Shown one piece after another: positions 157 through 53,342 of a stretch of 64,000 nt of DNA (position 1 is the first letter of the stretch; the number at the start of each line of letters is the position of its first letter). The stretch lies in IMG/VR virus record IMGVR_UViG_3300038856_000064, positions 1 to 64,000 of that record. One strand, written 5' to 3'. The DNA comes from a virus. The translations under genes and the position numbers were made by a program. The notes under the pieces are model-generated. The model was not told the DNA's origin, did not search any database, and saw only the letters and a list, made by a program, of their open reading frames with translations.

Positions 157-289
157 GGGCCTGTAGTTTAATAGAGACTGGTCATCTATATCAAACTGAG
201 TATACGCAGAGTCAACTGCATCGGATGACTTAAAAGAACGCATAGTCGTAATCTGTGAAGTGGAGGTTCAAGTCCTTCCGGGTCCACCA
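157..289 (+). tRNA. tRNA-Tyr(GTA)-like with a large D-loop insertion
   Basis: Acceptor GGGCCTG (157-163) pairs with CGGGTCC (279-285), followed by A73 and an encoded CCA. The T arm (262-278) has a canonical TTCAAGT loop. The anticodon arm is CATAG/CTGTG with loop TCGTAAT. This gives anticodon GTA, but position 33 is C instead of the near-universal U. D stem GTTT (166-169) pairs with GAAC (236-239), leaving a D loop of 66 bases where 7-11 is normal. The extra bases contain the stem-closed element at 181-229, which recurs in the next tRNA. Either the insert is removed from the transcript or the tRNA carries a giant D loop. The folded arms are seen; the amino acid identity is less sure because of C33. 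Confidence 0.7.
181..229 (+). ncRNA. D-loop insertion element, copy 1
   Basis: A 49-base element is closed by GTCATC (181-186) pairing with GATGAC (224-229). It contains TATCAAAC, then 9-10 bases, then the hairpin GCAG-AGTCAA-CTGC and a trailing A. Copies at 329-382 and 1702-1757 keep the same order of TATCAAA, GCAGAG and AACTGCA inside unrelated closing stems. It lies wholly in the D loop of the surrounding tRNA. I recognise no known ribozyme, riboswitch or group I or II core. It could be a tiny intron, a processing signal or a tRNA-targeting parasite. Confidence 0.6.
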
Positions 290-310
290 TTTTCTAGATG
301 AAAGAAACAT

Positions 311-437
311 GCCCCTGTAGCTTAAGATATCACGACGGGGTATCAAATCAATAAGGCAGAGTAAACTGCAAACCTTAGTGAGCAATAAAGCCCGAACTCA
401 TACTTCGGAGATTTAGGTTCAAGTCCTAACGGGGGCG
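311..437 (+). tRNA. tRNA-Met/Ile2 (CAT) with a large D-loop insertion
   Basis: Acceptor GCCCCTG (311-317) pairs fully with CGGGGGC (430-436), with G at the discriminator and no encoded CCA. The T arm is TTAGG-TTCAAGT-CCTAA. The anticodon arm CCGAA-CTCATAC-TTCGG gives anticodon CAT. D stem GCTT (320-323) pairs with AAGC (388-391), so the D loop is 64 bases long and contains the conserved element at 329-382. Apart from the insertion and the absence of a base at position 26, the body is a normal class I tRNA. CAT could mean initiator, elongator Met or lysidine-modified Ile. This cannot be decided here. Confidence 0.75.
329..382 (+). ncRNA. D-loop insertion element, copy 2
   Basis: It shares the core TATCAAAT, 8 bases, GCAG-AGTAAA-CTGC, A with copy 1. 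It is closed by the weaker TCAC (329-332) with GTGA (379-382). An extra pairing TAAGG/CCTTA brackets the GCAG hairpin. It lies inside the D loop of the CAT tRNA. The primary sequence outside the core differs from copy 1, so the shared core is unlikely to be a simple recent duplication. Confidence 0.6.
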
Positions 438-458
438 ATTTTTAAAAGGAACAACTAG

Positions 459-839
459 ATGACAGATAATGAAGGGATTAAATGTACAGGCGGACACACG
501 CTTCAATACCAAAACGGGCAGGAATTTACAATGGATATGACAGTCCTTCAAACTGCTTCTATGTCAGATGCTGACATTAAGCTTGAAGCGGGCATCCAGG
601 CGATTTCTGACCTACTAGGAGATGCAGAGGACGACACCGAGTGTGTCGAATGGGAGTGCTGTGGAGAATGCGTGGCAAATGCTGGCTTTTCTACAGCGCC
701 CAACTTCGAAAAGGGATTCTTTGATCTTCACCGAGAAGTTGTAGATGGCGTAGAGCAGGCTACGGTTCAGGTAATTCTGACTGCCGGCAATGATTTTGAT
801 ATTCTAGTTGTTTGTGATTGTGAGGAGGACGAATGCTAG
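459..839 (+). CDS. cysteine-rich acidic protein, paralogue of 9414-9833
   Basis: A 126-residue acidic protein of unknown function. It shares with the gene at 9414-9833 an N-terminal KCTG motif, the string MSDAD followed by an alanine/glutamate-rich helix, and a C-V-x-(W/Y)-E-C-C-x-E-C cluster near residues 68-77, plus a C-terminal Cys-x-Cys. The spacing of cysteines suggests a metal site or disulphide-bonded small domain. Both paralogues start directly after a tRNA gene. The start ATG is preceded by AAAAGGAACAACTAG, a weak ribosome site. It overlaps the next gene by 7 bases. Confidence 0.75.
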   Translation: MTDNEGIKCTGGHTLQYQNGQEFTMDMTVLQTASMSDADIKLEAGIQAISDLLGDAEDDTECVEWECCGECVANAGFSTAPNFEKGFFDLHREVVDGVEQATVQVILTAGNDFDILVVCDCEEDEC

Positions 840-1018
840 ACGACACTACAGACCAGAGCGTGACCATTTTCTTTACAAGTGGTACACAGATTCAATTTAC
901 TGGCGTGAGTGATGTGAAGAAAACAACCGATCGTATCACCTTCAAGAAGGGTGGAAACGATTATACATTTATGGTTAATACTTTAGCAGGCTGGTCATTA
1001 CCGGCTGGTGTAAAATGA
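833..1018 (+). CDS. small hypothetical protein
   Basis: 61 residues, no recognised family. The sequence alternates polar and hydrophobic residues (predicted beta, near SVTIFF and YTFMV). The start is well set by GAGGAGGACGA just upstream, inside the end of the preceding gene, so the two are translationally coupled. Confidence 0.7.
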   Translation: MLDDTTDQSVTIFFTSGTQIQFTGVSDVKKTTDRITFKKGGNDYTFMVNTLAGWSLPAGVK

Positions 1019-1245
1019 AAATGAAAACTGAATTTATGAATGGCAGGTTTATAGCTAATACGTCTAGCGATGATGGAGTTCAAAGGCTTCGTCTTGAGAT
1101 GTATCAATCTATCGATACGGCGTTATTTACCAGCGTCACGTATAATTGCGTATCATCAGATGACGTCGATAAAATGATTGACGAGCTAAAAGATGCTCGT
1201 AATCAGCTAGTTGTTTTTGAGGAAAAAGCAAAAAAAATCACTTGA
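1015..1245 (+). CDS. small hypothetical protein
   Basis: 76 residues, unrecognised. It begins in an ATGA overlap with the previous stop, so genes 459, 833 and 1015 form a coupled trio. The C-terminal third is helical and charged (DKMIDELKDARNQLVVFEEKAKK). Its end runs into the promoter at 1242. Confidence 0.7.
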   Translation: MKMKTEFMNGRFIANTSSDDGVQRLRLEMYQSIDTALFTSVTYNCVSSDDVDKMIDELKDARNQLVVFEEKAKKIT

Positions 1246-1269
1246 CAATCAGTCTAAGTAGGCTATACT
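1242..1269 (+). promoter_or_regulatory. sigma70-type promoter for the tRNA cluster
   Basis: TTGACA (1242-1247), a 16-base spacer, then TATACT (1264-1269). It overlaps the stop codon of the preceding gene. The leader after it contains GAGGC/GCCTC and GAGCA/TGCTC hairpins before the first tRNA at 1374. The downstream AGAGTGTTC is also found just after the -10 box at 10604. Confidence 0.75.
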
Positions 1270-1373
1270 AGAGTGTTCGAACGAGGCATGCTTCAAGCCT
1301 CTGGATGACACGTTAATGCTATGTCGCCTTGAGCAAGCGATATCTTAGTCATCTAGTTGCTGCTCATTTTATC

Positions 1374-1456
1374 GCGGAATAGTGTAACTGGTAACACGCT
1401 TGGCTCATAACCAAGAAACCGAAAAGGCTTGTCCGGGTTCGAGTCCCGGTTCCGCT
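1374..1456 (+). tRNA. tRNA-Met/Ile2 (CAT) with long variable arm
   Basis: Acceptor GCGGAAT pairs with GTTCCGC. D arm GTGT-AACTGGTA-ACAC. Anticodon arm CTTGG-CTCATAA-CCAAG gives CAT. T arm CGGG-TTCGAGT-CCCG is canonical. The variable region is about 17 bases, as in class II tRNAs (Leu, Ser, Tyr), which is unusual for a CAT anticodon. The discriminator is T and CCA is not encoded. Confidence 0.8.
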
Positions 1457-1469
1457 AAACAATTCTTAT

Positions 1470-1543
1470 GTCGAGGTAGTGTAGCTAAAGGCACGCTGGC
1501 GTTGGAGCCAGTAGAGTAGGTGTGACGCCTACCCTCGACACCA
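1470..1543 (+). tRNA. atypical tRNA, probable anticodon TGG (Pro)
   Basis: Acceptor GTCGAGG/CCTCGAC pairs perfectly, with A73 and encoded CCA (1541-1543). D arm GTGT/GCAC is normal. The anticodon stem CTGGC/GCCAG (1496-1500 with 1507-1511) closes a loop of only 6 bases, GTTGGA. Reading the 5' side canonically (N32, U33) gives TGG with A37 and no position 38. The T stem GTAGG/CCTAC is intact, but its loop is TGTGACG, lacking TTC. A normal Pro(TGG) tRNA exists at 9095. This may be non-functional, a tRNA mimic, or a tRNA with altered decoding. Confidence 0.55.
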
Positions 1544-1824
1544 GTCAATCCGAAAGCCAGGGTAGACGATTTCATTTTCCTTTTGTGTTTGAGATATGAA
1601 AAACTCTCATTTAGGCTTGACGATCCGGAGAGACGGGTACATTACCAGGGGCAATCACCTGGGTATAAAAACGTTGCATAATGATGCTTATAAAGTAAAA
1701 AGACTACTAGGTGTATCAAACTCCTTGACGCAGAGAGAACTGCAATCTGATGTAGTCATATAATGTATAATATTGATTTGTAATGGTAGTTGGTGGATCT
1801 ACTTGATTTAAAACCACCTTTTCA
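1544..1824 (+). other. non-coding stretch inside tRNA cluster
   Basis: No open frame. It holds a stable hairpin TACC-AGG/CCT-GGGTA around 1650-1675 and the third copy of the D-loop element (1702-1757). A GGTGG/CCACC pair at about 1790-1817 encloses a tRNA-like TTGTAATGGTAG. This may be a decayed tRNA, but I cannot assemble all four arms. Confidence 0.4.
1702..1757 (+). ncRNA. D-loop insertion element, copy 3 (no intact tRNA around it)
   Basis: GACTAC (1702-1707) pairs with GTAGTC (1752-1757). Inside are TATCAAAC, 8-9 bases, GCAG-AGAGAA-CTGC, A, the same core as copies 1 and 2. I could not find D stem, anticodon or acceptor arms around it. It is either free-standing or a remnant of a tRNA that has decayed. 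Confidence 0.55.
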
Positions 1825-3542: not shown

Positions 3543-4221
3543 ATGACTTCAGTAATAGTAGAGATTAGAGCCGCCGAAGGTGGCAAGGACGCTAAGCTTT
3601 TAGTTCAAGATCAACTAGGGATTTATCGCAAGGTTGCGCAGCGCTACTGTCTTTAGCATCGACGTCATAGAGGATCGGGCGGGGTTCGCTTGTTTCAGGG
3701 TGTCCGGTAAGGGTGCCGAGAGGACGTTCGCCAACGAGGGTGGAGGGCACCGAGTGCAGCGCGTGAGCCCTACAGAGAGGCGTGGAAGGGTCCATACGTC
3801 AACGATTACAGTGGCGGTGCTCCCTGAACCTAAACGACATGAGTTTAATCTAGATGTCCGAGATCTGGAAATTACAACTAGAAGAGGTAGCGGTCCCGGC
3901 GGACAGCATAGGAATAAAACAGACTCGTGCGTTGACATTAAACATAAACCAACCGGGATCGTAGTTTCTATAGATGGACGCTCACAGCATGCGAATAAGG
4001 CGTTAGCCTTGGAGATTCTTTCTGCAAAATTGCTTGCAAAACAGCGTGAGCGTGGTATAGTTGAGCGTAACCAGAACCGAAAAACCCAAGTAGGTTGTGG
4101 TCAGCGTGGTGACAAGCGACGCACTATTAGAATTCAGGATAATCAAGTGGTGGACCATATTCTTGGTAAGACCACAACCTATAAGGAGTATGTCAAAGGA
4201 AACTTCGATAAATTAATCTGA
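3543..4221 (+). CDS. peptide chain release factor (RF1/RF2 type), read through a +1 frameshift
   Basis: Two frames encode one protein of about 225 residues. Frame 1 (3543-3653) gives the start of domain 2, with VEIRAAEGGKDA and IYRKVAQRYCL, then TAG. Frame 2 continues at 3655 with SIDVIEDRAG and on to the end. Skipping one T in CTT-TAG-C aligns with E. coli RF1 or RF2 without a gap, as in the known prfB CTT-TGA-C switch. Domain 1 is absent. The codon-recognition tripeptide region reads RVSPTE, a mix of RF2 SPF and RF1 PxT. The catalytic GPGGQH motif is present. GGAGG stands 6 bases before the ATG. Bases 3655-3830 are much richer in G+C than the flanks. A sequencing indel or pseudogene is possible, but the CTTTAGC context argues for a programmed shift. 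Confidence 0.8.
3651..3657 (+). other. putative +1 frameshift site CTT-TAG-C
   Basis: The P-site CTT can re-pair with TTT after a +1 slip, exactly as in bacterial prfB, but the stop is TAG rather than TGA. An AAGG lies about 16 bases upstream, farther than the internal Shine-Dalgarno in prfB, so the stimulator may differ. A TAG stop would tie the switch to RF1-type activity. Confidence 0.6.
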
Positions 4222-4899: not shown

Positions 4900-5602
4900 G
4901 CCATTTAAAGAAAAACCCACCTGTTGGTGGCCAGACTCTGGAGATTTTATCGTAGATGATCTAGGTGATTATATCGATCTACATCAAGAAACAGTAATTC
5001 ACCAGATCAAAAGTATCATGCCTCTACATTTTTTTAATCAGGCATTTATATGTGGGGGATTTGCAGCTAATGTGGTTGGTATTACAAATTCATATGATGA
5101 TGTTGATATTTTTGTAACAGACAGGACAGAGTTTATGCTTACTGTAGATTATTTACAAAGACATCATGATATATGTGTAATGTATCACACTAATTCTAAA
5201 GATGATTATGGAGAAAGATTTAAATTTATATACAAAACCTCAGTCATAGATCTCGTAGACTATAGTAAAGTGATTGATAAACGTCGTCAAGCAGAAATCC
5301 GTTTAGGAAAATTTGATTCAGTATATATTAAGATACTAAAAACTTTTGATATTAACTGGTCTATGGCTTGTATCGATGTAGGTGCCAATGTGGAACAGTG
5401 GCACAAGGTAATCTATCATGAAGACGCCCTATCTCCCACAGTTGCGATGAACGAAGGGCGTCGAATAACTAACAACTACCACATAGCAGAAAGAATTAAT
5501 AAGTATCAATCAAGACTTAGTTTTGCTCCAAACCTTAAATGGAATGATGCGATAGCTAAAAAGCTTATGAGTGACGAGAAAGGATCTCCGTCAATTTACT
5601 AA
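4895..5602 (+). CDS. nucleotidyltransferase-fold protein, copy 2
   Basis: 235 residues, paralogue of the preceding gene. It has ICGGFAANVVGITNSYDDVDIF with the same GG...DxD pattern, then SVIDLVDYS and NWSMACIDVG. It carries an extra loop around residues 85-110. Its ATG lies inside the 39-base direct repeat, in what corresponds to the 5' coding part of the RNA ligase. The two copies have diverged widely in protein sequence, so the duplication is old, yet the repeat at its edge is well kept. Function as for copy 1. Confidence 0.65.
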   Translation: MWPFKEKPTCWWPDSGDFIVDDLGDYIDLHQETVIHQIKSIMPLHFFNQAFICGGFAANVVGITNSYDDVDIFVTDRTEFMLTVDYLQRHHDICVMYHTNSKDDYGERFKFIYKTSVIDLVDYSKVIDKRRQAEIRLGKFDSVYIKILKTFDINWSMACIDVGANVEQWHKVIYHEDALSPTVAMNEGRRITNNYHIAERINKYQSRLSFAPNLKWNDAIAKKLMSDEKGSPSIY

Positions 5603-5633
5603 AATGCAACTAGATAGCGAATTATTTAATGTA
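5595..5633 (+). repeat. direct repeat, copy B
   Basis: Matches 4861-4899 (see there). It includes the stop of the second nucleotidyltransferase gene and the ATG of the RNA ligase at 5604. Confidence 0.8.
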
Positions 5634-6749
5634 GTTGAGAAGGATGGCATGAGGTTGATTCTCCCATGTCATTCTAATGCCGTCTCTAATACGGGGTGGA
5701 CTAGGAAAAATCTATGGCTAAGATCTAGGGTCGAGTGCGCCAAAACTGGAGATACAATCTCTGAGAGCTTTGGAAAATTCTTTAACCTCGGCCAGGGTCC
5801 TGATGAGCTACAGATCAATATAGAAACAGTTCTAGATGCAATTAGAAATAACAGGAGAATTGTCGCAACCCTTAAGTATGATGGAAGCTGCCTGATTAGG
5901 TCGGTTTATAAGGGGGAGGTATTTCTTCGCACTCGTGGGTCATTGAAGTATACGTTTCACGACGATGCGGAAGATGAGATGAGGATCTTTACTGATAAGT
6001 ATCCACGTCTATTTGATCCTACCTGGGAGCCGGCTAAATCTCTGTTGTTTGAGTGGGTTACGCCAGCAGCACAAATTGTTATTTCCTATTCCGAGCCTGA
6101 CCTAGTCCTTCTAGGTGCAGTGGATCACGGTCATCGTCATTACTCTCATTTGAAATATTTGACAATGGAGCAACTAGAGCCAATTGCCGCCGAGTGTGGC
6201 GTAAGGCTAACGGAATACTTCACGATTGATTCAGTTAAGGATTGGTATGATTTTTATCATGAGGTTTTAGACCATAAAGAGATTGAGGGATACGTCCTTC
6301 GGCTTAACGACGAGCAGGATCTGGTTAAGGTTAAGAGCCAGCCATACATTACCAAGCATGGTGTGAAGAGTAATCTTTCGTTTAAGTCGATGGTGGAATT
6401 TTGGTTGCAACATGGTCAAGAGGCTATTTATACTTCGATTTTAGAACAACTAGAAAAGTTATATGACGAAGAAGTTGTCATGTGGGCATTGCCCTTTGTA
6501 GACAATCTCTTTGTCGCAGTCGAAGCGTGGGAGAAGGCTCGCACTAAAGTTGAGCTAGATGTCTCTACTCGTTCTCACTGGTCTCGTAAAGACTTTGCTA
6601 TCGAAATGAAAAAGAAGTATACCGGCGAAGAAGCAATTCTGTTTAGTGTCGCTATGCAACTTTGGCAAGGTAAGCCTATCGCAGACAAGATGATTCGTAG
6701 CTTTATGGAGCGGTTTGATAATGGTATTAAGGGAATGTTCAATGAATAA
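5604..6749 (+). CDS. RNA ligase, T4 Rnl1 type
   Basis: An ATP-dependent RNA ligase of about 381 residues joining 3'-OH and 5'-phosphate RNA ends. Motif I is L-K-Y-D-G-S, with the lysine that takes AMP. Motif III is F-E-W-V-T-P followed by QIVISY, a strong Rnl1 signature. Motif IV is IEGYVLR and motif V is VKVKSQPY. A helical C-terminal domain follows, as in T4 gp63. I start it at 5604 (ATGCAACTAG), 1 base after the previous stop, rather than at the upstream in-frame ATG that overlaps that gene. Rnl1 enzymes repair tRNAs cut by host anticodon nucleases. The presence of many tRNAs with insertions nearby makes tRNA ligation a natural role here. Confidence 0.9.
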   Translation: MQLDSELFNVVEKDGMRLILPCHSNAVSNTGWTRKNLWLRSRVECAKTGDTISESFGKFFNLGQGPDELQINIETVLDAIRNNRRIVATLKYDGSCLIRSVYKGEVFLRTRGSLKYTFHDDAEDEMRIFTDKYPRLFDPTWEPAKSLLFEWVTPAAQIVISYSEPDLVLLGAVDHGHRHYSHLKYLTMEQLEPIAAECGVRLTEYFTIDSVKDWYDFYHEVLDHKEIEGYVLRLNDEQDLVKVKSQPYITKHGVKSNLSFKSMVEFWLQHGQEAIYTSILEQLEKLYDEEVVMWALPFVDNLFVAVEAWEKARTKVELDVSTRSHWSRKDFAIEMKKKYTGEEAILFSVAMQLWQGKPIADKMIRSFMERFDNGIKGMFNE

Positions 6750-11529: not shown

Positions 11530-11654
11530 TGGCCCTAAGTGTAGGCTTGCACGGTTACGTATCTCGTAGATTTGTTAGCTACAATGAAGAAATCACGACG
11601 ATCGAGTGATATCTAGAGGCGTAAACAGAGCCGGTTCGAGTCCGGCGGGGTCAA
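11530..11654 (+). tRNA. tRNA-like gene with an internal insertion
   Basis: Acceptor TGGCCCT pairs with GGGGTCA (11647-11653). The T arm GCCGG-TTCGAGT-CCGGC is canonical and a D stem GTG/CAC follows the acceptor. Between them lie about 70 bases instead of about 25. One fold pairs GTTACG with CGTA(A)AC as an interrupted anticodon stem. ATCAC/GTGAT forms a hairpin inside. The TCACGAC string also occurs in the 311 tRNA insertion, but the TATCAAA/GCAGAG core is absent. Anticodon undetermined. Confidence 0.5.
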
Positions 11655-11693: not shown

Positions 11694-11779
11694 GGGGTAG
11701 CGCTTGGGCGTGACGCGACGGCGTTGTGATGGTTCGAATCCATCGTGGGATATCCAGGTTCGATTCCTGGTCTACCCCT
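11694..11779 (+). tRNA. tRNA-like sequence, possible anticodon CGA
   Basis: GGGGTAG pairs with CTACCCC. The T arm CCAGG-TTCGATT-CCTGG is followed by one extra base. A perfect second hairpin, GATGG-TTCGAAT-CCATC, lies where the anticodon arm should be and would read CGA. D arm is possibly GCG/CGC. Same double T-arm pattern as 1825 and 14103. Confidence 0.45.
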
Positions 11780-12058: not shown

Positions 12059-12268
12059 ATGAAGACACAAGGAATGACCGTATCTGAGTTGCGTGAAGCG
12101 ATGCATGCGTTGCTACCCTCTGAAGTGCCGCACACAAAAGCAGACGAGGCACGCTGTGCGCTCTATCATGAGCTTGAGCACGCCGAGGCTTATATGATGG
12201 GCTGGGGCAAAACCAAGCTACCAGAGCCGCGTGACCCCAGGGAGGTAATCAAGGATTTCAATGGATGA
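12059..12268 (+). CDS. hypothetical protein, probably leaderless
   Basis: 69 residues, helical, unrecognised. The ATG is at the expected transcription start of the promoter at 12026-12053 and no Shine-Dalgarno sequence is present. The alternative is a downstream start such as the ATG at 12074. Confidence 0.65.
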   Translation: MKTQGMTVSELREAMHALLPSEVPHTKADEARCALYHELEHAEAYMMGWGKTKLPEPRDPREVIKDFNG

Positions 12269-12452
12269 CTGGTATGAGGAGTATGTAACGGTAACGGAAG
12301 AGGTGTTTGAGGCACAGAGGCTTCTAGATAAAGCCAACGACATTATTGGCGCTCTGTTGGATCAGCAGGCTATGCCAGATGCCGAGTTGGAGTTGGAAAT
12401 CAATATTTGGAAGGATAACAGGGCTAGTTGGAATAAGCGAATATATTCCTAG
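12261..12452 (+). CDS. small hypothetical helical protein
   Basis: 63 residues, acidic and helical (TEEVFEAQRLLDKANDIIGALLDQQ). It overlaps the previous gene by 8 bases. Unknown. Confidence 0.65.
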   Translation: MDDWYEEYVTVTEEVFEAQRLLDKANDIIGALLDQQAMPDAELELEINIWKDNRASWNKRIYS

Positions 12453-13804: not shown

Positions 13805-14146
13805 ATGACTACTTGGAAAAAAGTCCTGACATTAGAAATGATGCGTGATCGTATTACGTATTATAATCAGCGCATTAAATGTAGGGTAAAAAATAAGAAA
13901 AGGTCAGCCGCTTACATCCTGGAAAATGGTAAGATTCTTCCAATAGTTCCTAACTCTGGTAAGTTTATCCACATACTATATATGGAAAGGGGTTTTCCAA
14001 TTGATGTAGCTAGACAAATTCTAGAAGACAAAGGGCTAGCGGCTGATGAAGAACAATTACAGATGTGTATTAACAATGAGCTGATCAAACAAATTAAAGC
14101 ACGAGAAAGAAAAAACCGGAGGGTAGATCGTTCGATTCGATCGTAA
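13805..14146 (+). CDS. hypothetical basic protein
   Basis: 113 residues, basic, with repeated short helices and an RERKNRRVDRS tail. Unrecognised. Its 3' end may overlap the tRNA-like sequence at 14103. Confidence 0.65.
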   Translation: MTTWKKVLTLEMMRDRITYYNQRIKCRVKNKKRSAAYILENGKILPIVPNSGKFIHILYMERGFPIDVARQILEDKGLAADEEQLQMCINNELIKQIKARERKNRRVDRSIRS

Positions 14147-14240
14147 GCTTGGCCTGCTGGTCGCGGTGCGAGCCCGCTATATAAATATAGAAGACAAAAG
14201 TTCGACGGAACGCCCGGAGGTTCGAATCCTCCCTTTCTCA
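14103..14240 (+). tRNA. possible insertion-bearing tRNA-like sequence
   Basis: GAGAAAG (14103-14109) pairs with CTTTCTC (14233-14239), A73. The T arm GGAGG-TTCGAAT-CCTCC is canonical. A second T-arm-like hairpin GATCG-TTCGATT-CGATC lies near the 5' side, and CTATA/TATAG and GTTC/GAAC hairpins between. The 5' acceptor lies in coding sequence and could be chance. The T arm is more certain than the whole gene. Confidence 0.35.
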
Positions 14241-21296: not shown

Positions 21297-21604
21297 AAAT
21301 TAACAAACTGTTTATGGCATTGGCCCTACTTTGCTCCTCTAGTTGTGAACCACAGGAAATTTCGACACCCAAATTCTCAGTTGGCGATCAAGTAATCATT
21401 AGTTTTCCTAATAAAGAGGATGCAGTAGGTGTAATAAAAGATGTCGGCGAGGTAAAAGAATTCGACCTAAATCTTGATGGAGTGATGGTAATGTCTAGGG
21501 CATATATAGTCCACATGATGCAATTTACTAAGGATCCTAGTGGTGTCATGATAGTAAGTGATGTCATCATGGGGTGTCCCGAGGCAATGCTTAAGAAGAA
21601 GTAA
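21293..21604 (+). CDS. predicted lipoprotein
   Basis: 103 residues. N-terminal MKINKLFMALALLCSSSC is a short signal with lipobox S-S-S-C, followed by a beta-rich domain that starts FSVGDQVIISF, reminiscent of KOW/SH3-like folds. ATGA overlap with the kinase gene. Confidence 0.7.
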   Translation: MKINKLFMALALLCSSSCEPQEISTPKFSVGDQVIISFPNKEDAVGVIKDVGEVKEFDLNLDGVMVMSRAYIVHMMQFTKDPSGVMIVSDVIMGCPEAMLKKK

Positions 21605-21605
21605 T

Positions 21606-22631
21606 ATGAGACAACTAGTAACATTAAGGACGGTTAAGGAACTCGTCGAGATTGAAGGGGCGGATCGAATTGAGCTTGCAAAAATTGACGGGTGGCAATG
21701 CGTAGTCAAAAAGGGAGACTTTCAGGTCAATGATAATGGCCTGTTCTTCGAAATTGACTCATTACTACCAGATGATGACCCACGCTTTTCTTTTCTAGAA
21801 GCTCGTAAGTTTCGTGTTCGCACTATGAAGTTGCGAGGAGTATTATCTCAGGGGTTGCTCATGCCCATGAGTATTCTTACGGATGACGAAGCTGAAGAAT
21901 TAGCTATGACTGGCGGTCGAGAAACCGACCTAACTGCTTTCTTTCGGGTTCAAAAATATGAGCCACCTCTACCAACCTCTGGTAAGCAAAAGGGGACGTT
22001 CCCGACTCACTTGGTGCCGAAGACGGACCAGGAGAGGATCCAAAATAATATTGAGATTTTAGAGGGGCGTCGCCTTCAAGATTTTGAGATTACTGAGAAG
22101 CTAGATGGGACTAGTTGCACATTTTTCTGTACCTACACAGAGGGTGACGAGGGTGTGGGGGTCCGACTCGGGGCTTGTTCACGTAATTGGGAAATGGAAA
22201 TATCCGATCCAGAAGAGCCCGGTAATGTCTACGCAAAACTATTTTGGGAGCTAGGTCTTCCTCAAAAAATGACGGGACTTAGGCGTAGTCTTGCTATTCA
22301 GGGGGAAATTATAGGCCCTGGCGTTCAAGGAAACAAATACAAGAGGGGTAGGCAAGAGTTCTACGTGTTTGATATTTGGGATATTGATAAGAGAGAATAT
22401 CTTAAGGAGAAGGAACGAGATGAGTTGACTGAACAACTAGATCTTTACCATGTTCCTAGGATCTTAGCTGCTAGCGGACCACTAGGTGATATCGACCCTA
22501 TCTTAGAATTCGCTGATGGAAAGAGTCAGCTTTACGACACTATTCGAGAAGGATTAGTCTTTAAACATCGAGAAGACACAAGTCTATCCTTCAAAGTTAT
22601 TTCTAACAAGTTTTTACTAAAGGAAAAATGA
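21606..22631 (+). CDS. RNA ligase, Rnl5/DraRnl-like
   Basis: 341 residues. The N-terminal 115 residues match the OB-type module seen in DraRnl (GADRIELAKIDGWQCVVKKGDFQ, then LLP and LRGVLSQGLLMP). The nucleotidyltransferase domain follows with motif I I-T-E-K-L-D-G-T-S, motif III-like I-Q-G-E-I-I-G-P-G, motif IV R-E-G-L-V-F-K and motif V S-F-K-V-I-S-N-K-F. DraRnl-type ligases seal 3'-OH/5'-phosphate nicks in RNA. I start at 21606 (ATGAGACAACTAG), just after the previous stop. With the Rnl1 at 5604 this phage has two distinct RNA ligases. Confidence 0.9.
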   Translation: MRQLVTLRTVKELVEIEGADRIELAKIDGWQCVVKKGDFQVNDNGLFFEIDSLLPDDDPRFSFLEARKFRVRTMKLRGVLSQGLLMPMSILTDDEAEELAMTGGRETDLTAFFRVQKYEPPLPTSGKQKGTFPTHLVPKTDQERIQNNIEILEGRRLQDFEITEKLDGTSCTFFCTYTEGDEGVGVRLGACSRNWEMEISDPEEPGNVYAKLFWELGLPQKMTGLRRSLAIQGEIIGPGVQGNKYKRGRQEFYVFDIWDIDKREYLKEKERDELTEQLDLYHVPRILAASGPLGDIDPILEFADGKSQLYDTIREGLVFKHREDTSLSFKVISNKFLLKEK

Positions 22632-50228: not shown

Positions 50229-53200
50229 TTAAATTTCGCAAGTATCATTATTACAATAGCGTTCGCCCTGCGCCTTTCCACCCCGTAGTGATGTCAAGCG
50301 CAACTTCTTAAGATCTTTTGAATACTCCTTATAGTCTTCTTCTGAACACTCTTGATAGGGCGCCTGTGAATAACTATGATCCTTGAGTGGCAGAAAACTA
50401 AGGGTCTTTACGTAAGAAGCCAAGTATTCAATAGCACTCTTGAGATCCCGCACCTCCTCTGGCCTGAATGTCACAGTAATACTAACTGAATTATCTGACC
50501 ACTTGTCTTGTAGTTCGCGAGCCAGACTAAGTTGTTCCCATAGAGAAATGTCAAACTTGCTCTTAGTGAAGTTCTTTTCTTCTACGGGAAAATAGACTAC
50601 TAGAGAGCCGCCGTGATCTCCGAATGCTTCTAAGGTTTCACCTGTCAGTCCATCCTTCATGTCACGTTCCCAATCTGCCGAACTACCTCCAGCAGCCTCA
50701 TATATTTCTTGATCAGTAGCTGCAAGCTCAATACGATAACCTGCGTTTATCAATTTATTGACAAGGGGGTGTTTAGCGGAGATACGGAATGTACGAAGGT
50801 AATATTTAGAATGGGTGCAATGAACACCGGGAGTCGCACCAGCCAGTAATGACACAGTCCCACTTGGTTTTACGGTGGTAACCTTAATTGAGGTAGGGAT
50901 ACCGAGCCATCTAGAATAGATTCTATCCCAATGTCTTACAACATCATAGCCCTTATCACAAAAATCCCCAAAGAATTCAGCAAAACCAAACTTCTTAAGC
51001 GCCTGTTGAACACCGGACATGGAAAGTCCAATGCGACGATTACTTAACATAACCTGATTAGTCAGTTGATTATGTGTCGGTACTAATGTTACGGTTTTTG
51101 CATACATAAACGCAAACTTTAGAGTTTCGTGATATTCCTCTGCGGATTCATGATTAGCTGGGAATGTTTCCACTAGGCAACATAGTTCACCGTGCCTAAG
51201 TCCTTGCTCGCCACAGTTAGACACACTCAATCCGCCCGTCCAATAGGTATGAGACGAATTATCTACTGTAATATCAAATACTTCGTAGTCACCCAGATAT
51301 TCAGTCTCTTGTTTGTTAGTAAATGTTGGGCGATCATTTGGACAATAACCTGCATCTAGACATACCTTAATCTTATCCATCTTGTATTGTTGGATAAAGC
51401 CAATGATGTTATAGAATCGCTCAATATCCTTTGTGATGTTAACATCATAGGATTCCTTACATTCATAGTCACCATTTTTGAATGACACAACCTTAGCTTT
51501 ATTGGTTGTAATATATGACCTTATACCTAGGATTGATAGTGCCAATTGTACATCGCGACCTAGCTGGCGAGATGCTGTCTTATAGGTTACTCTAACTGAG
51601 TTACTACCCTGATTTATAACGCTGCCATCCGCTGTGTATAACCCTCTTAAGAAAGAAGATAGCCTAGACGGATTCTTAAACATTCTTTGGGGAATACTTA
51701 ACTCATAAGACTTCACCTTTTCTTCTACTGTAATAGACGTAGAAACCTGGAGGTGATCACAAGATCCATCTCTCTGAAATCTATTGCCCAAGAATTCCAC
51801 TAGCTCAGACTTAAAATAATCCTTGTCGTCCTTTCCAATAATAAGGACTGGATATTGCTTATTCCTATTTTGTTGTTTCTTATAGTAACCATCCCCAAAA
51901 AACACACCGTCTGCCACGTAATTTGCTAATGGTGCAACTAAATCAGTATGATCCACACCCGCGATAGTCAGCACCTTATCAGCATGCCGAACTTCCTGCT
52001 TGCCTTCGGGAGTCTCAACTCTATGATTGGCTGTACCTGTAAATACCCCGCCAGTTGTGTAATGATTAAAAACTGGCTTAACGCCTGTAGACCACTTATT
52101 CAAGACCTTAGTCCAGCCTTCGCGAGACCAAATTTCATCACCAATCTCGATATCACCCATAGTCCGCAATCCATCCTTAGTGAGAATAGTTGCAAACTCA
52201 GGCTGGCATGGATTAAAGCCATCTACGTCGTCAAACTTGCTACTGGTCTCTGAGCGCCAACCATCCTTTAAGCGGCCATAGTGTCTTGCATTATTTAGAA
52301 ATATAAACCCTGGCTCTCCATTCTTCGCAACAGATTTTATAACATTACTGAAGTCACTATCTGGTGTAACAAAAATCGAATTATTAGATGCCCAACGACG
52401 ATCGTTAAGTTCTGCTTTGTAAAGCTCTGGATCCTTCATTCGAATAAAATCCGAATCATCTTCTTCACCAATAGCGATCTCGGCACCGCGACGCACATTG
52501 CCAGATACAACAAACTTTCCGATAAAATTCATGATGTCTGTGATATCTACTGATGTAAGGGTGTTGCCAACACGGGCATCTAGTAGTTTACGAATTGACT
52601 CTATACCTTTCTTAAGGGGTTCGGGACCACATGCGATACCACCGAAGCCCTTAATTGGTTCACCAGCTTTACGAATATTGTCATAACAGAAAAGAACCTT
52701 GGTCTGGTTTGGCTTACTATACGATTCTAACAATCGCTTAAGGGCTTCAACCCAACCCTCTCTAGTGTCAGGGATATCATAAACATCTCCAATGACTAAT
52801 CTAGAGTCTGGCCCCGCGCCTTTTACGGGAGCCTGCTCTGTAGTAAGCACGTCTTGTGGCTCATAGACAGTTGCCTTACCTGCGCCCTTGGTATCGAACC
52901 CAACACCGACACCTAGCATCATCATATCAGTCGTCCAAACAAACGGCATAGCGAAGTCACGATGGATGTCACGGGTGCTGATGAATCCGCAATTTTGTAA
53001 ACTGGCAGACCCTATTTTATCAACTACCGAAGTCCCCATAATCCAAAGTCCGCGACCAGGGGGAAGAAATTTAAACTCCCACATTTTTGTAAACATTTTT
53101 TGTGCAGTAGCCTGAGCCTTTTGCGGGTTCCACTCAAGCCCTATTCGCTTACAATGCTTGAACTGAATATTAAAAACACCTTCAACTACACGCTGGCATG

Positions 53201-53342
53201 TTTCCCAATACTCTTCTTGTTGTCCGTTGTCTTTTTCTCTAGCATATGTGCGTTTATACACAAAATAACTTAAGTCCCCAAAACCCCAATTAGGTTGCTT
53301 CCCCTCATACTGACTAATAAATAGATCTGATAACTTAAACAT
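50229..53342 (-). CDS. nrdJ: class II (B12-dependent) ribonucleotide reductase interrupted by an intein
   Basis: 1037 residues, of which about 331 are intein (379-709). The exteins, about 706 residues, match monomeric adenosylcobalamin-dependent RTPR (Lactobacillus type): F-L-P-P-G-R-G-L-W-I-M-G-T, S-L-Q-N-C-G-F, G-N-V-R-R-G-A-E-I-A, N-P|C-G-E-Q with the catalytic cysteine, and K-P-S-G-T-V-S-L-L-A. The C-terminal redox pair is C-N-N-D-T-C. The enzyme makes dNTPs from NTPs without a small subunit or oxygen. It belongs with dUTPase, dCMP deaminase and ThyX on the same strand. The phage may depend on host cobalamin. Confidence 0.93.
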   Translation of the reverse strand: MFKLSDLFISQYEGKQPNWGFGDLSYFVYKRTYAREKDNGQQEEYWETCQRVVEGVFNIQFKHCKRIGLEWNPQKAQATAQKMFTKMWEFKFLPPGRGLWIMGTSVVDKIGSASLQNCGFISTRDIHRDFAMPFVWTTDMMMLGVGVGFDTKGAGKATVYEPQDVLTTEQAPVKGAGPDSRLVIGDVYDIPDTREGWVEALKRLLESYSKPNQTKVLFCYDNIRKAGEPIKGFGGIACGPEPLKKGIESIRKLLDARVGNTLTSVDITDIMNFIGKFVVSGNVRRGAEIAIGEEDDSDFIRMKDPELYKAELNDRRWASNNSIFVTPDSDFSNVIKSVAKNGEPGFIFLNNARHYGRLKDGWRSETSSKFDDVDGFNPCQPEFATILTKDGLRTMGDIEIGDEIWSREGWTKVLNKWSTGVKPVFNHYTTGGVFTGTANHRVETPEGKQEVRHADKVLTIAGVDHTDLVAPLANYVADGVFFGDGYYKKQQNRNKQYPVLIIGKDDKDYFKSELVEFLGNRFQRDGSCDHLQVSTSITVEEKVKSYELSIPQRMFKNPSRLSSFLRGLYTADGSVINQGSNSVRVTYKTASRQLGRDVQLALSILGIRSYITTNKAKVVSFKNGDYECKESYDVNITKDIERFYNIIGFIQQYKMDKIKVCLDAGYCPNDRPTFTNKQETEYLGDYEVFDITVDNSSHTYWTGGLSVSNCGEQGLRHGELCCLVETFPANHESAEEYHETLKFAFMYAKTVTLVPTHNQLTNQVMLSNRRIGLSMSGVQQALKKFGFAEFFGDFCDKGYDVVRHWDRIYSRWLGIPTSIKVTTVKPSGTVSLLAGATPGVHCTHSKYYLRTFRISAKHPLVNKLINAGYRIELAATDQEIYEAAGGSSADWERDMKDGLTGETLEAFGDHGGSLVVYFPVEEKNFTKSKFDISLWEQLSLARELQDKWSDNSVSITVTFRPEEVRDLKSAIEYLASYVKTLSFLPLKDHSYSQAPYQECSEEDYKEYSKDLKKLRLTSLRGGKAQGERYCNNDTCEI
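51216..52208 (-). mobile_element. LAGLIDADG intein in nrdJ
   Basis: Residues 379-709 of the host protein. It starts with Cys in C-Q-P-E-F-A-T-I-L-T, followed by G-D-E-I-W-S, and ends G-G-L-S-V-S-N before C+1 (hedgehog/intein blocks A, F and G). The F block reads Y-E-V-F-D-I-T-V-D-N-S-S-H-T-Y-W-T. Two LAGLIDADG-like helices are visible (A-D-G-V-F-F-G-D-G-Y and R-G-L-Y-T-A-D-G-S-V), so it carries a homing endonuclease. The final residue before the extein is Asn, and the +1 residue is the RTPR catalytic Cys. Confidence 0.92.

Follow-up and report, generated by a model that had tools for sequence, protein, structure and literature searches.

Why does one short sequence recur three times among the tRNA genes of an uncultured virus, twice inside D loops, and does it work there as RNA? 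The window that we analysed, a stretch of 64,000 nucleotides, corresponds to bases 1-64000 of a 175,148-bp record of this virus (G000 below). Table 1 lists the features discussed.

Results

Three copies of a core with identical bases

We searched for the pattern TATCAAAN{6,12}GCAGAGNNAACTGC (TATCAAA, 6-12 bases, then GCAGAGNNAACTGC) and found matches at three places in the window, all on the + strand (189-219, 341-369 and 1714-1743) and each with a trailing A. Exactly three copies had been listed in the initial annotation. A set of 100 dinucleotide shuffles gave 0 matches, so none is expected by chance, and a search of the whole 175,148-bp record added no further copy.

The consensus core is TATCAAA-N8-10-GCAG-AGNNAA-CTGC-A, and its fixed bases are identical in the three copies (20/20), with pairwise identities of 21/21 for TATCAAA and 39/39 for the hairpin stem, the AG..AA loop frame and the final A. 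The spacer between TATCAAA and the hairpin has a pairwise identity of 25-33%, which is background; the two variable loop bases agree in 1/6 of comparisons, and the 40-base flanks are 28% identical, where base composition predicts about 25%. The products of a recent duplication would still share their flanks, so a core that is kept while its surroundings are at background is a maintained one and not a recent repeat. On these sequence comparisons, an identical core amid background surroundings is the strongest evidence that something acts on it. A short stem capped by a constant loop frame, one that fits GNNA on an A.A pair, points to RNA rather than DNA.

Table 1. Coordinates of the element, its carriers and other features (window positions, unless a genome handle is given)
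Feature	Position	Strand	Remarks
Copy 1, core	189..220	+	TATCAAA 189-195, spacer 196-205, GCAG/CTGC hairpin 206-219, A220
Copy 1 with outer stem	181..229	+	GTCATC 181-186 / GATGAC 224-229; weak relative to genome background
Copy 2, core	341..370	+	TATCAAA 341-347, spacer 348-355, hairpin 356-369, A370
Copy 2 with outer stem	330..381	+	TCAC 330-333 / GTGA 378-381; weak relative to genome background
Copy 2, inner pairing	337-341 / 372-376	+	GGGGT/ACCTT
Copy 3, core	1714..1744	+	Outside any recognisable tRNA
Copy 3 with outer stem	1702..1757	+	GACTAC 1702-1707 / GTAGTC 1752-1757; weak relative to genome background
Possible long imperfect hairpin, copy 3 near tip	1672..1785	+	Fold z -1.19, not significant
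tRNA, anticodon GTA	157..289	+	C33; holds copy 1 in 66-nt D loop 170-235; CCA encoded 287-289
tRNA, anticodon CAT	311..437	+	Holds copy 2 in 64-nt D loop 324-387; Rfam RF00005, 43.9 bits
T4 Rnl1-like RNA ligase	5571..6749	+	Pfam PF09511; NCBIfam below cut-off; context only
DRB0094-type RNA ligase	21558..22631	+	TIGR02306, 170.7 bits, cut-off 151; context only
Short tmRNA	G005:21105-21221	-	Rfam tmRNA end to end, 68.4 bits, cut-off 47, E 1.5e-26
Short tmRNA, orthologue	G000:144825-144940	+	
Short tmRNA, orthologue	G006:33307-33423	-	
Second, shorter tmRNA-like candidate (71 nt)	G000:145535-145605	+	42.1 bits, just below cut-off 47, E 3e-15

Two copies lie in enlarged D loops

Copies 1 and 2 are carried by tRNAs. 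An Infernal tRNA match to the CAT carrier spans the insert and scores above the gathering cut-off. The GTA carrier was called by neither ARAGORN nor Rfam; a pairing scan and fold gave it a 7-pair acceptor stem, a D stem (GTTT/GAAC), an anticodon stem and a T arm. In each carrier, pairing is intact in all four arms (acceptor, D, anticodon and T). Counted directly on the sequence, the D loops of the copy 1 and copy 2 carriers have the lengths given in Table 1, versus 5-11 nt in the other tRNAs that ARAGORN found in the same genome, and the recount agrees with the earlier description of complete tRNAs whose D loops hold 64-66 bases. Judged by D-loop size both carriers fall outside what is normal for a transfer RNA, and judged by cloverleaf pairing both fall within it. 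A C at position 33 is unusual in an elongator tRNA. Given C33 in the GTA tRNA, and no clear G18-G19, the carriers may be non-working in translation.

The surroundings of copy 3 are non-coding, with tRNA genes nearby, and no recognisable tRNA encloses 1714-1744.

Other tRNA genes of the window are also unusual. One at 1372-1458 combines a CAT anticodon with a long variable arm, which tRNAs for Met or Ile do not usually have, and tRNA-like genes with unusual interiors and good acceptor and T arms occur at 1826-1900, 11530-11654, 11695-11778 and 14103-14240.

Secondary structure around the core

Each copy had been described as bounded by its own pairing stem. Outer stems of 6, 4 and 6 Watson-Crick pairs can be drawn for copies 1-3, and each 5' flank pairs better with its own 3' flank than with swapped partners; however, random genomic flank pairs reach equal energy with P = 0.20, 0.14 and 0.18, which does not lift the stems above genome background. 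The outer stems are supported only weakly. The companion claim, that the core is kept while the stems vary, therefore stands for the core but not for the stems: the outer ones are within background and the inner hairpin is invariant in all three copies, so it offers no covariation. With the element in one genome only, covariation cannot be demonstrated.

Folded in isolation, the elements have unremarkable z-scores of only about -1. Inspection by eye of two further pairings, a loop-spacer pseudoknot and one between UAUCAAA and the 3' strand, showed that each fails in at least one copy.

Searches for the element elsewhere

A scan of positions 100-2100 against 4227 Rfam covariance models, with E up to 5, returned tRNA and some sub-threshold matches that are not credible, in accord with the initial annotation, which had assigned the element to no known family. 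Ribozyme families (HDV-like, Pistol, hammerhead, twister and others) gave no consensus match, even at loose thresholds. Two covariance models run over the phage clade recovered the three known copies, the next match having an E-value of 1.2.

The exact motif has 6 matches in IMG/VR, none near a tRNA and all in coding-like contexts. Loosening the stem gave at least 119 stretches; 5 of the 80 loci listed pair fully in the hairpin, and each of these five, among the matches listed, falls in a near-complete open frame away from any tRNA. Loosening TATCAAA gave 77 stretches, 42 of them in clearly open frames; the others have no tRNA setting or matching upstream strand, and many are copies of one sequence. 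A collection of 84,980 genomes yielded 5 matches, most in open frames and none in a recognised tRNA setting; it and IMG/VR were possibly searched without records very near this genome. No description of such a D-loop insert was found in the literature, among open-licence papers. Going by its sequence, the element would be an unusual phage tRNA feature with a repeated RNA motif outside described families.

A collinear relative without the element

Head-region and capsid proteins place the phage in a small IMG/VR clade with no cultured member. One relative, IMGVR_UViG_3300001199_000002 (G006; 176,061 bp, near-complete), is collinear with the window, and it alone among the relatives covers the tRNA region. 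The fragments G001-G005 do not reach this region, so that they have neither tRNAs nor the element means little. G006 has 28 tRNAs and, by covariance-model search, no copy of the element. The initial annotation had reasoned that the element would be random expansion if relatives lacked the core. Such a relative exists, but 20/20 core bases among unrelated surroundings argue otherwise.

The tRNA region of G006 contains a Pistol ribozyme (RF02679, 51.5 bits; 169491-169563, - strand), and four tRNA genes of this genome, all on the - strand, have extra segments. Three of them (161917-162028, 12220-12340 and 170391-170608) carry either an additional hairpin arm or long inserts, which lie outside the D loop; the extra segments include an added hairpin between the D and anticodon arms. 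At the fourth (171558-171703), a complete tRNA-Leu (GGGGTAG...CTACCCA, with its own T arm) is apparently nested inside a tRNA-like gene. The clade thus tolerates enlarged tRNAs, and the element is one case.

RNA ligases and other enzymes

The phage encodes a CCA-adding enzyme and two RNA ligases, both kept in G006 (49% and 53% identity). From the enzymes named at the outset, the two ligases and two calcineurin-like phosphoesterases hold, but the kinase is a weak match only. A tRNA-splicing endonuclease (PF01974) is absent from G000, G005 and G006, a statement about phage genes, since the host may supply the enzyme. RtcB was not found in the same three genomes. G000 has no Y1 transposase (PF01797), which sets the element apart from the IS200/IS605 or REP type. 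Phage RNA ligases are otherwise used to mend tRNAs that host nucleases have cleaved, as in T4 (PMC10264068).

Three other proteins drew our attention. A 195-residue protein (window 3634-4221), 64% identical in G006, resembles the C-terminal part of peptide chain release factor 1. The terminase (G000:131757-134840) has 1027 residues, compared with about 510 in relatives, and the 1037-residue ribonucleotide reductase (window 50229-53342) gives split matches; each looks interrupted, probably by an intein.

A short tmRNA in the clade

The clade also encodes a tmRNA of 113-117 nt that has no messenger domain and is conserved in three related phages. In the G005 copy, 42 nt replaces the 292-nt middle of the Rfam model. 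Among the three phages, the acceptor and T stems differ at both partners of pairs, with G3-U70 kept in 3/3, and the RNA seems too short to hold a tag reading frame. No SmpB is encoded. The short tmRNA could perhaps act on host trans-translation, for instance as a decoy.

Discussion

The core, its constancy, its positions and the intact arms of the carrier tRNAs are plain from the sequence. From them we infer, tentatively, that the element is a recognition module some 30 nt long, acting as RNA, retained in its carrier RNA and bound through its core by a putative factor. The unpaired UAUCAAA would be held beside a short hairpin, with a loop that fits a GNNA tetraloop over an A.A pair (GCAG-A-GNNA-A-CUGC), and a loose outer stem would display the module at the tip of a carrier helix: the D stem for copies 1 and 2, a free-standing hairpin for copy 3. 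Both carrier tRNAs would probably retain the module, with the tRNA body as its stable scaffold, and the core would be read by a factor from the phage or its host, likelier a protein than a small ligand.

Introns and mobile elements conserve their ends. Here conservation lies inside the element and does not extend to its junctions with the carrier, the opposite of introns and transposons, which favours a recognition module; and because the core occurs in two tRNAs that differ and once outside a tRNA, the conserved part is independent of its carrier. Retention is feasible, since engineered tRNAs tagged with hairpin aptamers can be translationally active (PMC7590224).

It is doubtful that the copies are functionless debris of the tRNA region, spread by conversion or chance in decaying tRNAs. 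The element is absent from the near-complete G006 and from all other sequences searched, the GTA carrier has its C33, and odd tRNA-like genes are many; but neutral copies would not hold every core base while spacer and flanks are at background, and the arms of both carriers still pair.

Also unlikely, and rather more so, is a DNA-level signal that lies in tRNA genes by coincidence, such as a site for binding or recombination, or a trace left by a mobile element. The three copies share a strand within 1.6 kb, and tRNA genes are frequent targets of mobile DNA. However, the missing Y1 transposase is matched by a lack of conserved ends and of target duplications, the AG..AA loop bases and 4-bp stem resemble an RNA hairpin and not a DNA palindrome, and the linker variation of 8-10 nt is awkward for a DNA-binding site.

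We give slightly less weight still to a putative new small self-cleaving ribozyme, in which the UAUCAAA strand and the hairpin would form a catalytic core that cuts the carrier, with phage ligases perhaps resealing or trimming it. A compact conserved core with variable linkers would suit a ribozyme, as would the Pistol ribozyme in the tRNA region of the collinear G006, and the CCA-adding enzyme and DRB0094 RNA ligase belong to a set enriched in theta-ribozyme phages (PMC10879173). Against this, no Rfam ribozyme is similar even at loose thresholds, a cut in the D loop would split the tRNA, unlike the maturation of a tRNA end by theta ribozymes, and no conserved base outside the core marks a cleavage site. 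The same small weight goes to the broader idea of a new compact catalytic or self-splicing D-loop RNA, with phage ligases making or repairing tRNAs. Excision or self-cutting would amount to a new way of interrupting and maturing tRNAs in bacterial viruses.

An intron origin, one of the ideas raised at first, is unlikely and the least credible of all; a nuclease would take a mini-intron out of the D loop, and the RNA ligases would reseal the tRNA. Two otherwise complete tRNAs are interrupted and two ligases encoded, but the junctions share no sequence, copy 3 is outside a tRNA, endonuclease and RtcB were not found in G000, G005 and G006, and G006 has both ligases without the element. Together, the differing ends, the non-tRNA setting of copy 3, the endonuclease, RtcB and Y1 genes not found, and the ligases of an element-less relative lead us to prefer the retained recognition module.

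We know of no natural tRNA scaffold that displays a hairpin module. Archaeal tRNA introns at non-canonical sites (reviewed in PMC4090602) are likewise tRNA-gene inserts outside the anticodon, but the element has no shared junction motif, no tRNA endonuclease gene in the phages, and one copy outside a tRNA; looking by eye at the sequence and folds, we saw no bulge-helix-bulge at its junctions. Phage tRNAs that escape anticodon nucleases (eLife 2023, PMC10264068) are also altered from the host form, although the known changes are in the anticodon loop and are not D-loop inserts. The Pistol ribozyme (RF02679) is present in the tRNA region of the related G006, whereas the tRNA part of the window has no match and the core lacks the Pistol consensus in the Rfam scan. 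Theta ribozymes, which are HDV-like and found beside phage tRNAs (Nat Commun 2024, PMC10879173), resemble the element in being small structured RNAs tied to tailed-phage tRNA genes, and the CCA-adding enzyme and DRB0094 ligase are here too; however, they abut the tRNA 3' end, whereas the element, known here from sequence alone, is in the D loop and has no HDV match. In aptamer-tagged or scaffolded tRNAs (PMC7590224), a tRNA body likewise carries a hairpin module; those are engineered, whereas the present ones would be natural. Should the element prove functional and stay in its carriers, tRNAs would serve in nature, too, as scaffolds that display another RNA.
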